Assembly (NCBI GenBank): GCA_026692705.1
Contig: JAPLOE010000097.1
Location: forward strand, 1-64,000
Source: Planctomycetota bacterium
GTDB lineage: Bacteria > Planctomycetota > UBA1135 > GCA-002686595
DNA: 64,000 nt
Reading direction: 5' to 3'
Shown: positions 56,339 through 64,000 of the stretch, piece after piece
Numbering within the stretch: the stretch's first letter is position 1
Layout: the number at the start of each line of letters is the position of its first letter
Translations under genes and position numbers: made by a program
Notes under the pieces: generated by a model
What the model saw: only the letters and a program-made list of their open reading frames with translations
Database searches by the model: none
Told to the model about the DNA's origin: nothing

Positions 56339-57397
56339 CTAGATGGGCAAGACGAATTCGAGCTCCCCGAACACATCGCGCGCCGGAACTCCGTGCCGCT
56401 CGACGACAGGGGCGAGCGCGCTGCGATAGTCGATCGAGCCAGGTAGATCTCCGGGTCCGAGCAGAGAGTCGTTCGAGAGCCCACGCCAGCGTTGGTGGAC
56501 GCCGCCGCGCACCCCGCCGCCGAGCACGAACATCGTGAAACCGTGGCCATGGTCCGTGCCGAGCGCCGAGTTCACGGCGACGCGTCGGCCGAACTCGGTG
56601 TAGACCACCACGCTCGTCGTCTCGAACAACGCCCCGAGGTCGAGCGCAAAGTTCGCCAGCCCTTGCCCGAGCTCGAGCAGCAGCGGCGCGAGCAGCTGGG
56701 CCTGCGCGACGTGCGAGTCCCAGCCGTGCAAGTCGATGCACACTGCGGCCGGACGCGCGCCGGCCTTGATCAGCCGCGCGGTCTGGGCGAGTTGCTGGGC
56801 GAAGGCCTCGCGACCCCACTGCACGCCATCGGCCGGCCGATACGGCGCCGTCGCGAGCTGGCGCAGCTGTTCGAGAGCCATGCGGGTGTTCGCGGCCGAC
56901 TGTGCGAGCAGCGGATCCGCTTCGTACAGCCCCGAAAGACGCTCCGAAAGCTCGAACACGCGCGGACCGGGATCGAGGTCCGACAGGTCGCGCAGCGCCA
57001 TCGCCGGCGCTCCGCCGCGCAGGCCCTCGGGCAGGCTGTCGCCAAAGGCCATGGCGGGCAGTACACCTCCGCGAGCCGTGGCGTAGCGCGCGATCCACCC
57101 GCCTGCGCCGTCGGAACCGCCGCGTTCGAGCAGCGGCTGTGCAGCGAAGTGCGAGCGGGTGTCATCCGAGCTCGCGGCGTCGACGACCACGGCGAGCTTG
57201 CCTTCGCGCCACAGCGGAGCGAGCGCCGACAATTCCGGGGCGAGCGCAAAGAGGTGGTCGAGTTTCTCGCCGCGGCCCGCCTTGACGCCGTTCAGTGGAC
57301 GCGCGCGATGGTAGTCGGGATCGCCGACCGCGGGCGCGAGCGCGAGACCGTCGGCGCCGCCGCGCAGGAAGATCGTGACGAGCGTCTCATTCAGCAT
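56339..57397 (-). CDS. DUF1501 family protein
   Basis: A 352-residue protein with the family signatures TLVTIFLRGGADGLALAP (RGG-x-D near the N-terminus), DTRSHFAAQPLLERG, VCIDLHGWDSHVAQ (W-D-x-H) and VVVYTEFGRR, ending in GDLPGSIDYRSALAPVVE. DUF1501 has a sulfatase/phosphatase-like fold and occurs almost always next to DUF1800. Its start overlaps the DUF1800 stop by 7 bases. No export signal is seen on this chain, unlike many relatives with Tat signals. The role is unknown, probably periplasmic or secreted-complex related. Confidence 0.92.
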   Translation of the reverse strand: MLNETLVTIFLRGGADGLALAPAVGDPDYHRARPLNGVKAGRGEKLDHLFALAPELSALAPLWREGKLAVVVDAASSDDTRSHFAAQPLLERGGSDGAGGWIARYATARGGVLPAMAFGDSLPEGLRGGAPAMALRDLSDLDPGPRVFELSERLSGLYEADPLLAQSAANTRMALEQLRQLATAPYRPADGVQWGREAFAQQLAQTARLIKAGARPAAVCIDLHGWDSHVAQAQLLAPLLLELGQGLANFALDLGALFETTSVVVYTEFGRRVAVNSALGTDHGHGFTMFVLGGGVRGGVHQRWRGLSNDSLLGPGDLPGSIDYRSALAPVVERHGVPARDVFGELEFVLPI

Positions 57398-58824
57398 CGC
57401 TGGAACCCCGGGCTGGAGAGCATCGCGGCGAGCGCGGCCGCGTCGTCGCCCGCCGCAAACACCTGGAGTTCAGCGTCGCTCGCCGCCCTCCCGAGGCAGG
57501 CTCGAGCGAGACGTTCGCGCCCGCCCGCGCGTGTGCAGAGCGCCGCGGCGTCGATCCGCGCCGAACTCAATCGGCCCTGCGCGAACTCCTCGGCGAAGCG
57601 CCAGCGGCCGAGCAGGCCGGCGCGCCAGTGTGCGGCGTTGTCCGGGTATCCATCGGGTGTCGGCCACGAGTAGGGCGCGTGCCCAAGTCGTTCGAGCCGC
57701 TCGAGCAGCGCGTCATCGGGTTCGCAGCGCGCGTCGCAGGCGCGCAGCGCGGAAGCCACGAAATGCAGAGGCCGCTTGAGCTTGAGACCGCGCGCCTCGC
57801 GAAACTCGCTGCTGTGGAGCAGCGTGCGCAGCGCGGCCGCGATGTCGCCGTCGCTGGCGCGCAGGCTTGCAGCAACGCGCAGCACGAGTTCCGCCGGTGG
57901 ATCGTCGGCGACGAAGCGCACGCACAGCTTGCGCGCGACGTGGTGCGCGGTCGAAGGATGCGCGCAGACGATGTCGAGCACGCGCTCGACCTCTTCCGCG
58001 CCCAGGCCCGCCTCGAGCTCGAAACCCAGCGCGTCCTTCGCTCCAGCGTCATGCCGACTGGCGTCGAAGCTCACCTTGGACTTGCGCGATTCGCCCAGGC
58101 CGCGTGAAGTCCAGCCGCTGAGCGCGCGCGCGAGCGCCTGGACATCGCGCTGCGTGTAGCCGCCGCCCAGGCCCAGGGTGTGGAGCTCGAGCAGCTCGCG
58201 CGCGTAGTTCTCGTTCGGCGTCCCCAGGTCGGCGCGATTCAGTCGTCCGTCGAGATACCAGAGCATCGCCGGGTGCAGCAGCACCGCGCCGAGCAGTTCG
58301 CGCAAGCGTCCGAAGGCGTGTGGGCGAAGTGCGTCACGCTCGAAGCTCGTCGCGAGCCACGCGCACTCGCCCTTTCCGAGGCTCAAGCTGAAGTGGTCGC
58401 GCCACAGCTCGAGCAGCGTTTCGCGCAGTCGGCGTTCGCTGTGGATCGCCCCCAGCAGGACCACCGACTGCAGCTCGCGGCGCACGACTTTCTCGTGGAA
58501 CTCGTAGAGCTCTCCAGTCGGAGCGTTCCAAGTCTCGAAGCGACGCAGCTTCGAGTCGAACTCGCGATCATCGAGCGTTTCGGGCGCGAGCTGGCGCTCG
58601 ATCCACTGGGCGACGCTTGCGCGCGTATCTCGATCGCCCGGCCGGGCGCCGTACGCACAGCGCGCGAGAAGGTGCTCGAACTCGGGATCTTCGCCACTGC
58701 CCGGCCAGGGCTTGTCCGCGGCGCCTTGGCCCGCGATCCAGTGGACCGCGGGAAGTGCGCCCAGGCTCGCGAAGAGCCATGCGCCGGCGAGCGCTGCCAC
58801 GAGCTCTCTGCGTGAAGCCGCCAC
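57391..58824 (-). CDS. DUF1800 family protein
   Basis: A 477-residue protein with a GTG start and signal sequence (LVAALAGAWLFASLGALPAVHW). The DUF1800 hallmarks are DPEFEHLLARCAYGARPGD near residue 45 (HLL-x-R-x-x-x-G), TLLELWRDHFSLSLGKG, MLWYLDGRLNRADLGTPNENYARELLELHTLG and ALARALSGWT. Its partner DUF1501 follows at once. It starts 4 bases after the upstream membrane protein stop, placing it in the sigma-factor operon. Confidence 0.93.
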   Translation of the reverse strand: MAASRRELVAALAGAWLFASLGALPAVHWIAGQGAADKPWPGSGEDPEFEHLLARCAYGARPGDRDTRASVAQWIERQLAPETLDDREFDSKLRRFETWNAPTGELYEFHEKVVRRELQSVVLLGAIHSERRLRETLLELWRDHFSLSLGKGECAWLATSFERDALRPHAFGRLRELLGAVLLHPAMLWYLDGRLNRADLGTPNENYARELLELHTLGLGGGYTQRDVQALARALSGWTSRGLGESRKSKVSFDASRHDAGAKDALGFELEAGLGAEEVERVLDIVCAHPSTAHHVARKLCVRFVADDPPAELVLRVAASLRASDGDIAAALRTLLHSSEFREARGLKLKRPLHFVASALRACDARCEPDDALLERLERLGHAPYSWPTPDGYPDNAAHWRAGLLGRWRFAEEFAQGRLSSARIDAAALCTRAGGRERLARACLGRAASDAELQVFAAGDDAAALAAMLSSPGFQRC

Positions 58825-59353: not shown

Positions 59354-59718
59354 GGAGTGAGTTCCTTCAGGACCGCGCCAGCCTTGGCGAGGTAGTACGA
59401 GGGGGCTTCGAGCACCGGAGGCGCAGGGAGTCTCGGCGGCGGGGGCAGCGCCGGAGCGCGTGCGTGCGAGAGGCTCGGTGCAGCCCTGGCTGTCCTGACA
59501 ACCTGGGGCGCAAGGTACGCCGTCGCCAGCGCCGCAAGCGTCGCCAGCGCGAGCGTGGCGCGCCTCGAAAGCGGCAATCGAGGTTCGCCTTCGAGCTGGC
59601 GTGCGCGACGCGCAAGTTCCGTGAACGAACTTCTCGATCCCGTCGGGCCGGGGCTATTCCGCGCCCTACGCGCGAGTTCCTTCCAGCGAGCTTCGAAGCC
59701 CTGGCCGTGCGAACTCAT
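59350..59718 (-). CDS. Small one-TM protein, possible anti-sigma factor
   Basis: The ATG at 59718 overlaps the sigma-factor stop (ATGA), giving 122 residues. The N-terminal ~50 residues are charged and helical (FEARWKELARRARNSPG, SSFTELARRARQLEGEPR) and could contact a sigma factor. One membrane segment (ATLALATLAALATAYLAPQVV) precedes a Pro-rich outer part (PALPPPPRLPAPPVLEAP). It lacks the usual Zn-binding His-x3-Cys-x2-Cys of ZAS anti-sigma factors. The role is inferred from position. Confidence 0.7.
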   Translation of the reverse strand: MSSHGQGFEARWKELARRARNSPGPTGSRSSFTELARRARQLEGEPRLPLSRRATLALATLAALATAYLAPQVVRTARAAPSLSHARAPALPPPPRLPAPPVLEAPSYYLAKAGAVLKELTP

Positions 59719-60284
59719 GGCGCGGCGCTCCCCGGCCCAGTCGCACGGTCGCGCAAGCGTCGCCGGGCTCGGAAGGCGCGAACCTTGACGAGCGCGCGGC
59801 TCCAGCCCGTGAGGTTGGCGATCTCGGCCGTCGAGCGACCTTCGAGGTCCAGCAGGGTGAGCACCAGGCGATCGTCGGCTGGCAGGCTCGCCAGCAGGGC
59901 TTCCGCCGCTTCTCGCGCAGCGCTCGCGTCCATTTCTTCGCTGCCTCCGCTCGCCAGCCAGGCCAGCGCACGCTCGGCGTCCTCCGAGAGCGCGACGGCT
60001 GGCTCGCGGGCCTCGTGACGCAGCCTGTCGCGGCACACGTTCACGGCGAGGCGCGAGAGCCAATGCTCGAAGGGAACGCCGTCGCGCTCCCCGTAGCGTT
60101 CAGAGCGCGCGAACATGGTCAGGAAGACCTCTTGCACGAGGTCCTCGACGCTTGAGCTCCGCGGCCGGTAGGCGCGTGCGATGCGGCTGATGAGTTCGGC
60201 GTGCCGCTCACACACCTCGCGCCCGGCGTCGTCGTCCCCCGCGCGCCAGCGCGCGAGCAGTTCAGCTTCAGCGGGAGCCGGCAT
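59715..60284 (-). CDS. ECF-type RNA polymerase sigma factor
   Basis: A 189-residue sigma-70 protein without region 1 and region 3, so of the ECF type. Region 2 reads ELISRIARAYRPRSSSVEDLVQEVFLTMFARSERYG and VPFEHWLSRLAVNVCRDRLRHE. Region 4 reads ALLASLPADDRLVLTLLDLEGRSTAEIANLTGWSRALVKVRAFRARRRL. It is first in a chain of five genes that all overlap or nearly touch, ending with DUF1800 and DUF1501, so it probably directs expression of this operon or responds to its products. Confidence 0.92.
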   Translation of the reverse strand: MPAPAEAELLARWRAGDDDAGREVCERHAELISRIARAYRPRSSSVEDLVQEVFLTMFARSERYGERDGVPFEHWLSRLAVNVCRDRLRHEAREPAVALSEDAERALAWLASGGSEEMDASAAREAAEALLASLPADDRLVLTLLDLEGRSTAEIANLTGWSRALVKVRAFRARRRLRDRATGPGSAAP

Positions 60285-62442: not shown

Positions 62443-64000
62443 ATGTCCTTCCTTGCCGCGCTGGTGCTGTCGCTCGCGGTCATTCCGCAGGATCCGGAGG
62501 CGACGGCGCAGGGGCGAACGCACTTCCTCGGGCGACCGGTCGCGCAGACCATGCACTGGCTCGGCGCGGAATGGTTGATGCGCGAGACTCGCGAGCAGGA
62601 GGAGCATGGCGAGGCCCTGCGCGCTTGGCTCTCCGTGCGGCCGGGCCAGGCGGTGTGCGACCTTGGGTGCGGCAACGGCTATCACGCGCTACCGCTCGCG
62701 GACGCGCTCGGACCCGAGGGCACGCTGTATGCGGTCGACTTGCAGCCCGAGATGCTCGCGATGCTCGCGCAGCTCGCGGGCGCGGCCGGGCTGAACAACG
62801 TGCGCTGCGTCCAGGCCGAGGTCGACGATCCGCGGCTCGAGCGCGAGAGCTGCGACCTCGTGCTCATGGTCGATGTGTACCACGAGCTCTCCCATCCGGT
62901 GCGCGTCATGGGGCACGTGCGCGAGGCGCTGCGTCCCAAGGGACGCGCGGTGCTGGTCGAGTTCCGCGCCGAGGATCCCGCCGTCCCGATCAAGCCCGAG
63001 CACACTCTGTCCAAGGCGCAGCTCATCCGCGAGATGGCACACCACGGCTTCTCGTGGGCCGGAGAACTCGGCGCATCCGGCGAGAGGCGCCTGCCGTGGC
63101 AGCACGCGGTCGCCTTCGAGGTGCGCGAGACGGGCCCGCGCCACGAGCCGCGCGAGTTGCTCGGCGCGTACCTGCGTGCCGTCGCAGCCGGTGATGAGCG
63201 CGAGCTTGCACCTTTCCGCGCGAGCACCGTGAAGAGCATCAACCTGCCCAAGGGCGCGCGTGCGGAGTTGCGAGCGGGCGCCGGGGACGCGCTCTGGGCA
63301 CGGCTCGAGAACGAGGTCGGCGAGGTGGCCGAGCTCGAGCTCGCGCGCGACTCCGCCGGTCGCTGGTTCATCATGCGCAACGGGCCCGAGCCGCTCGCGC
63401 CGCGCGCTCACGGTTCGAAACTTCGGTTCGTGGCGATGAACACCGGCACGCGCGGCACGCCGGACGAACAGGCGAGCCTGCTCGCCGAGCTCGGCTTCGA
63501 CGGCGTCGGCTGGGATCTCGGCGGACTCGCGCCGGCGCGCGCGGCGTTCGAGCGTCGTGGCCTCGACGTGCAATCGGCCTACGGCGTGCTCGATCTGCGC
63601 AGCGTGCCGCAGGGCGACGCTGCGGCCGCGAAAGAGCTCGCAGCTCGTCTCGTGCCGCTGCGGAACGCGATGGAGGCGCTGCGCGGTGGCCCGGGCATGT
63701 TGTGGCTCGCCGTGCGCCACGACAGCGCGCCGCTGCGCTCGACGGAGGGCGACGCCGACGCGCTCGTGGCCCTGCGCAGCCTGCTCGAGGAGGCGCGCCG
63801 CACGGGCGTCGAGATCGCGCTCTACCCTCACCACGCGTTCTGGCTGGAAACCGCCGACGACGCGCTGCGCCTGTGCCGCCAGCTCGACGATCGCCGCGTC
63901 GGCGTGTGCTTCAACCTTTGCCACTTCCTGCGCACCTCCGACGCGACCAGCGTGCGCGCCGCGCTCGAAGCGCTGCGCGGGCACCTGCTCGCGGTCACGC
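62443..64000 (+). CDS. Methyltransferase fused to sugar-isomerase-like TIM barrel (runs off window)
   Basis: Missing from the ORF track because no stop lies in the window. From the ATG at 62443 the frame stays open for 519 codons. An N-terminal signal-like stretch (FLAALVLSLAVIPQDPEA) is followed by a class I methyltransferase domain (about 40-220): QAVCDLGCGNGYHALPLADALG is motif I, GTLYAVDLQPEML motif II and CDLVLMVDVYHELSHP motif IV. A ~100-residue linker domain comes next, then a xylose-isomerase/AP-endonuclease-2-like TIM barrel (from about 325): ASLLAELGFDGVGWDLGGL, then VEIALYPHHAFWLE and VGVCFNLCHFL with metal-type His and Glu. The C-terminal end lies beyond 64000. Confidence 0.8.
   Translation, partial: MSFLAALVLSLAVIPQDPEATAQGRTHFLGRPVAQTMHWLGAEWLMRETREQEEHGEALRAWLSVRPGQAVCDLGCGNGYHALPLADALGPEGTLYAVDLQPEMLAMLAQLAGAAGLNNVRCVQAEVDDPRLERESCDLVLMVDVYHELSHPVRVMGHVREALRPKGRAVLVEFRAEDPAVPIKPEHTLSKAQLIREMAHHGFSWAGELGASGERRLPWQHAVAFEVRETGPRHEPRELLGAYLRAVAAGDERELAPFRASTVKSINLPKGARAELRAGAGDALWARLENEVGEVAELELARDSAGRWFIMRNGPEPLAPRAHGSKLRFVAMNTGTRGTPDEQASLLAELGFDGVGWDLGGLAPARAAFERRGLDVQSAYGVLDLRSVPQGDAAAAKELAARLVPLRNAMEALRGGPGMLWLAVRHDSAPLRSTEGDADALVALRSLLEEARRTGVEIALYPHHAFWLETADDALRLCRQLDDRRVGVCFNLCHFLRTSDATSVRAALEALRGHLLAVT

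Follow-up and report, generated by a model that had tools for sequence, protein, structure and literature searches.

A predicted exported methyltransferase fused to a sugar isomerase-like barrel with replaced metal ligands in a Planctomycetota bacterium

At the end of the analysed stretch of DNA (the window, comprising bases 1–64,000 of the 66,834-base contig C97 of a Planctomycetota bacterium), an ATG at position 62443 opens a forward-strand frame that is still open at position 64000. An earlier note had read this frame as a SAM methyltransferase, a linker domain and a xylose isomerase-like barrel behind a signal-like N-terminus, and had considered the presence of two unrelated enzyme folds in one exported chain unusual. 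Does such a gene exist in this form, and what could its product do? Continued reading of the contig sequence bore out the open frame and located the stop codon at 64207–64209, 209 bases beyond the window, with neither a frameshift nor a stop before the barrel is complete. The fusion gene, of which 519 of the 588 codons lie in the window (62443–64000, +), encodes a complete protein of 588 residues. Relative to an orthologue of 79% identity, the differences at the first, second, and third codon positions amounted to 0.148, 0.117, and 0.320, respectively. This concentration at third positions and the intact full-length orthologues in many assemblies show that the frame is coding, and a chance open frame could be ruled out. 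The complete barrel ahead of the stop codon rules out a frameshift or artefact where the window ends, and an assembly chimaera is ruled out by the presence of the same fusion in assemblies of independent studies. The gene has a third-position G + C content of 0.89, which explains the long antisense open frame shadowing it (62689–64000, −, continuing on the contig); there is no evidence that this frame is a gene. Judged by eye, the gene that follows on the contig resembles a DEAD-box helicase, and a DUF1501/DUF1800-like gene pair (56339–58824, −) and a sigma factor-like gene (59715–60284, −) are located upstream on the other strand.

That the protein consists of a methyltransferase, an NTF2-like, and a barrel domain is near certain, and both enzyme-type domains named in the earlier note were recovered by Pfam above the respective gathering cut-offs. 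The SAM-dependent methyltransferase domain (about residues 25–230; 62515–63132, +) matched Methyltransf_25 at residues 71–167 (E = 3e-17), and its assignment is also based on the structure model, a Foldseek match to 3dh0, and the family survey. It shows fold and sequence features of class I methyltransferases, namely a Rossmann-like fold, a profile match, and a DxGxGxG motif with an acidic residue. In the SAM-binding motif I DLGCGNG (residues 73–79; 62659–62679, +), D73, G75, G77, and G79 were found in 100% of 105 family rows, and the acidic residue after strand 2 (D99) in 93%. The same rows revealed two family motifs, VDVYHE (residues 143–148; 62869–62886, +), with D144, V145, H147, and E148 at 100% and Y146 at 99%, and EFRAED (residues 173–178; 62959–62976, +), with E173, R175, E177, and D178 at 100%. 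Besides the SAM motif, about 17 polar residues were conserved to 99–100%; the residues at this level include R31, W44, R47, R50, E54, D144, H147, E148, E173, R175, E177, D178, H187, Q193, E197, Q220, and H221. The near-invariance of the SAM motif and the polar set speaks for enzymatic activity towards a single type of substrate. Among the best NCBIfam matches listed for this domain, no model was matched at its cut-off. The nearest, the arsenite methyltransferase ArsM, reached 45 bits, the cut-off being 263. ArsM has several conserved arsenic-binding cysteines, and the fact that no cysteine reached a conservation of at least 90% among the 105 rows speaks against an ArsM identity. UbiE/MenG and CmoB were rejected as well, with scores far under the curated NCBIfam cut-offs.

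The region that the earlier note had called a linker domain is present between the two enzyme folds (about residues 231–322; 63133–63408, +), but models, Foldseek, and the alignment indicate an NTF2-like fold that is shortened in the clade of the window protein. No Pfam family was found for this domain. In the longer orthologue L041 it was modelled with a pLDDT of 91, the window copy being shorter, and Foldseek matched the L041 domain to NTF2/SnoaL/ketosteroid isomerase folds with a TM-score of about 0.6.

The xylose isomerase-like TIM barrel, identified by Pfam, Foldseek, and profile search, begins at about residue 328 (63424–64000 in the window, +) and continues to residue 588 at 64206. It matched Pfam AP_endonuc_2 (PF01261) at residues 346–577 (E = 8e-18, 65.4 bits against a gathering cut-off of 31.1). 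AlphaFold2 modelling of the 79% identical orthologue L042, for which an alignment of the 15 fusions was used, yielded a pLDDT of 84.5 and a pTM of 0.84, and in Foldseek searches the barrel matched YcjR (6wn6) and UlaE (3cqj), with the 3-keto-glucoside 4-epimerase YcjR as best match. In ketose 3-epimerases, the metal is bound by Glu152, Asp185, His211, and Glu246, both glutamates being catalytic, whereas His188 holds the substrate (PMC8167858). These sites, with positions equated by sequence alignment, were compared between 44 barrels of the window's branch and 27 ordinary PF01261 barrels, the latter taken from the genome of the window and from six relatives. The ordinary barrels carry Glu (27/27), Asp (27/27), His (19/27), and Glu (27/27) at the four ligand positions. 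In the branch, the Glu152 position is occupied by Tyr461 (63823–63825, +) in all 44 barrels and the Asp185 position by Asn491 (63913–63915, +) in 38. The His211 position, Thr519 in the window protein (63997–63999, +), holds Thr in 27, Ser in 8, Asn in 6, Ala in 3, and His in none of the 44, and the Glu246 position, beyond the window, holds Gln563 (64129–64131, +) in 38. His494 (63922–63924, +) at the position of the substrate-binding His188 is retained in 43 of the 44 barrels, and H463 is equally frequent.

The replacement of the ligands is uniform rather than a scattered decay and extends to the stand-alone members of the branch. The branch lacks the Glu-Asp-His-Glu centre with its two catalytic glutamates that characterizes metal-dependent epimerases and isomerases. 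Since all four ligands are replaced (Y461, N491, T519, and Q563), the canonical metal mechanism and isomerase chemistry are not expected, which leaves sugar binding or a different chemistry, and the barrel probably serves to recognise sugars, not to isomerise them. Two unrelated folds are therefore joined as proposed in the earlier note, but the label of enzyme is doubtful for the second one. In the fused copy L047, the histidines of the YPH and CH motifs are lost as well, and this loss, together with several relatives that have no barrel, indicates that the barrel is dispensable. Metal-less barrels also occur in other contexts; one is fused to a sulfatase in L125 according to Pfam, and by eye they are joined to LamG-like and cytochrome c-like regions in L134 and L135, with L140 listed alongside.

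Whether the protein leaves the cytoplasm was assessed from its N-terminus and those of its relatives. Residues 1–18 (MSFLAALVLSLAVIPQDP; 62443–62496, +) form a signal-like hydrophobic stretch, as do the N-termini of the family. A home-made test, weaker than a trained predictor, detected an uncharged hydrophobic stretch after the Met and upstream of the methyltransferase domain in 94 of 109 family rows, compared to 17.5% of shuffles; most of the failing rows are truncated, have no ATG, or carry N-terminal extensions. Lipobox-like N-termini were found in the relatives L010 and L015, and by eye the stand-alone barrels have mostly Sec-, lipoprotein-, or twin-arginine-like N-termini. Taken together with the exported fusion partners described below, these features make export of the fusion protein likely. 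The exported chain of the earlier note thus stands as a prediction from sequence, with the reservation that the hydrophobic N-terminus of the window protein lacks both a basic n-region and a clear AxA site. Other methyltransferases were considered as a control for the signal peptides, but mostly turned out to be lipoprotein-like themselves and hence provided no cytosolic control. A second methyltransferase family of the same order, 33–38% identical, has lipoprotein-like N-termini (for example LLALAAC; L021, L022, L024, L025, L026, L028, L029, L030, and L032), so that several kinds of exported-looking SAM methyltransferases may occur here. No extracytoplasmic supply of SAM is known.

A search for the same fusion in 61 genomes of the organism and its relatives retrieved full-length matches of 79, 72, 54, and 44% identity, and among 84,980 scanned species genomes the whole fusion was present at 15 loci (L033–L047). 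These loci stem from metagenome assemblies of several studies, and their lineage is Planctomycetota wherever the record names one. The fusion is thus present in at least 15 other assemblies at 40–79% identity, and the possibility that all relatives carry separate genes does not apply. The methyltransferase, a member of a large PVC family, is more widespread when taken alone, with the next 64 loci belonging to Planctomycetota or Verrucomicrobiota wherever a lineage is named. Strong methyltransferase matches were obtained in 53 of 294 Planctomycetota genomes, with one copy each, and the barrel family in 24 of the 294. In trees from a quick search, several inner branches of which are weak, all 20 fused barrels formed one clade apart from the stand-alone barrels (SH-aLRT 97), and the fused methyltransferases grouped within a single clade (support 97) together with the unfused L048, L050/L051, and L052/L053. 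No detached barrel was found within the fetched flanks of L048 and L050–L053. L049 appears unfused because its contig ends; a matching barrel piece is located on contig C77 of the same genome (G041). The monophyly of the fused barrels fits a single fusion with later barrel losses, and such a history, with a few losses, is the simplest explanation. A gene for a CobW-type GTPase downstream of the methyltransferase gene in both L047 (fused) and L050/L051 (unfused) fits barrel gain or loss at one locus. With this exception, no neighbours of the fused genes were found to be conserved beyond close relatives.

The barrel is not the sole partner of the methyltransferase, which is located C-terminal to a sulfatase in L012 and L187 and to a PQQ propeller in L063. 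In L014 it precedes a GH29 fucosidase with an F5/8C domain, and in L193 a 3-keto-disaccharide hydrolase, being the N-terminal part in both. The fusion called unusual in the earlier note is a new architecture built of known folds, but the same methyltransferase module is joined to several other types of exported modules, and what is more unusual is the family of apparently exported methyltransferases. The module is furthermore joined to a second methyltransferase domain in L016, and the frames L190, L202, L204, L208, and L210 have C- or N-terminal extensions of 200–330 residues that Pfam does not name. In Pirellulales-type genomes, the gene order lpxD-lpxI-methyltransferase was observed in L066, L080, L090, L092, and L094, and lpxI-methyltransferase in L076, a locus truncated at the start of its contig; Pfam was run on this neighbourhood in L066, L090, and L092. 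The lpx-adjacent genes are single-domain, unfused, and confined to one group, and the order is a possible link of the methyltransferase to lipid A. A gene resembling a sigma-54-type regulator lies downstream of the methyltransferase in the lpx-type loci. The domain types found as fusion partners are common in the exported proteomes of PVC bacteria, so their choice may reflect the available pool rather than a pathway. The partners, the sugar isomerase fold, and the lpx order all point to envelope carbohydrates, although each of these leads is weak alone.

As a tentative interpretation, which we rate somewhat below an even chance, the protein would be exported and would methylate a sugar or glycolipid of the envelope, with a sugar-recognising pseudo-isomerase barrel attached to the methyltransferase. 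A Sec-type signal would take the three-domain protein out of the cytoplasm, probably to the periplasm, where the methyltransferase domain probably methylates a sugar-bearing envelope molecule such as a glycan or a lipid A-like glycolipid. The NTF2-like domain would serve as connector, and the barrel, whose metal centre is lost and conservatively replaced (Y/N/T/Q), probably binds sugar and would thereby dock or present the substrate to the methyltransferase. This proposal draws on the spread of the fusion, the single barrel clade, the conservation of the methyltransferase, the N-termini, the partners, the lpx order, and the retained substrate-type histidine. Against it count the source of SAM outside the cytoplasm, the partner pool, the restriction of the lpx order to unfused genes, the unconserved neighbours, the site loss in L047, the relatives without barrel, and the missing basic n-region of the window protein.

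The uniformity of the replacements at Tyr461, H463, His494, Asn491, and Gln563 suggests selection for a function, and this function could also be catalytic. The barrel would then be an active metal-free enzyme whose conserved Tyr/His/Asn/Gln site converts an activated sugar such as a 3-keto sugar in a two-step fusion enzyme, as might be expected from YcjR as best fold match and from the 3-keto-disaccharide hydrolase domain carried by other members of the methyltransferase family. This possibility is rather unlikely given that the barrel has neither the metal site nor either catalytic glutamate, that no metal-free enzyme of known activity was found in the superfamily in this analysis, and that the site (L047) or even the whole barrel has been lost in some cases.

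The two domains might also lack any functional coupling, having been joined once by domain shuffling as two exported modules and kept for shared export or expression. The many different partners of the methyltransferase, the unconserved neighbours of the fused genes, and the several barrel losses or gains required by the methyltransferase tree would agree with such a history, which is nevertheless improbable because the fusion has been kept across several families at 40–79% identity, and nearly all copies retain an intact barrel site. Least expected is retention of the protein in the cytoplasm, with the hydrophobic N-terminus as a membrane anchor or a weak start-site artefact. It would place methylation where its cytoplasmic cofactor SAM is and would account for the atypical N-terminus of the window protein, but is hard to reconcile with signal-like N-termini throughout the family, lipobox-like ones in relatives, and methyltransferase domains located behind a sulfatase or PQQ propeller that itself begins with a signal-like sequence.

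Beyond the sugar-recognising fusion protein proposed here, it is conceivable, though we hold this view with clear reserve, that Planctomycetota and Verrucomicrobiota methylate outside the cytoplasm by means of a usually single-copy exported methyltransferase family plugged into diverse modules (sulfatases, fucosidases, 3-keto-disaccharide hydrolases, and the metal-less isomerase barrel). If true, this would imply a periplasmic supply of SAM in PVC bacteria, of which none is known, and the envelope glycans or lipid A of these bacteria may receive their methyl groups in situ. The metal-less barrel branch would represent a new pseudoenzyme or new-chemistry subfamily, with clear site residues, of the large sugar isomerase superfamily. 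Searches of the open-licence literature turned up neither the fusion nor the metal-less branch, and no report of an exported SAM methyltransferase from these bacteria; given this scope, the negative result is weak evidence. More notable than the fusion are the methyltransferase family, with its apparent export, and the branch of metal-less barrels.

Among known systems, the closest families of the methyltransferase domain are Pfam Methyltransf_25/31, and the best PDB sequence match of the fusion protein is 3dh0, a SAM-dependent methyltransferase of Aquifex aeolicus (E = 2e-13), which shares the fold (TM-score 0.87 by target, Foldseek) and the SAM motif. Whereas 3dh0 stands alone as a chain, the PVC family has in addition a conserved N-terminal GRxxAxTMHxxGAxWLxRxxRExEE segment, the invariant polar residues, and a signal-like N-terminus. 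The middle domain appears to share the cone-shaped alpha/beta fold of NTF2-like, SnoaL, and ketosteroid isomerase proteins, but differs from them by the missing Pfam match, the shortening in the window's clade, and the lack of traced known catalytic residues. With YcjR (6wn6), UlaE (3cqj), and the ketose 3-epimerases, the barrel has in common the fold (TM-score 0.75 by target), the profile match, and the substrate-type histidine, whereas it differs by the four replaced ligands, the loss of both catalytic glutamates, the predicted export, and the fusion to a methyltransferase. A solved structure, 5hmq, likewise joins a xylose isomerase-like barrel to an unrelated enzyme fold, its fusion partner being a different one, a 4-hydroxyphenylpyruvate dioxygenase.
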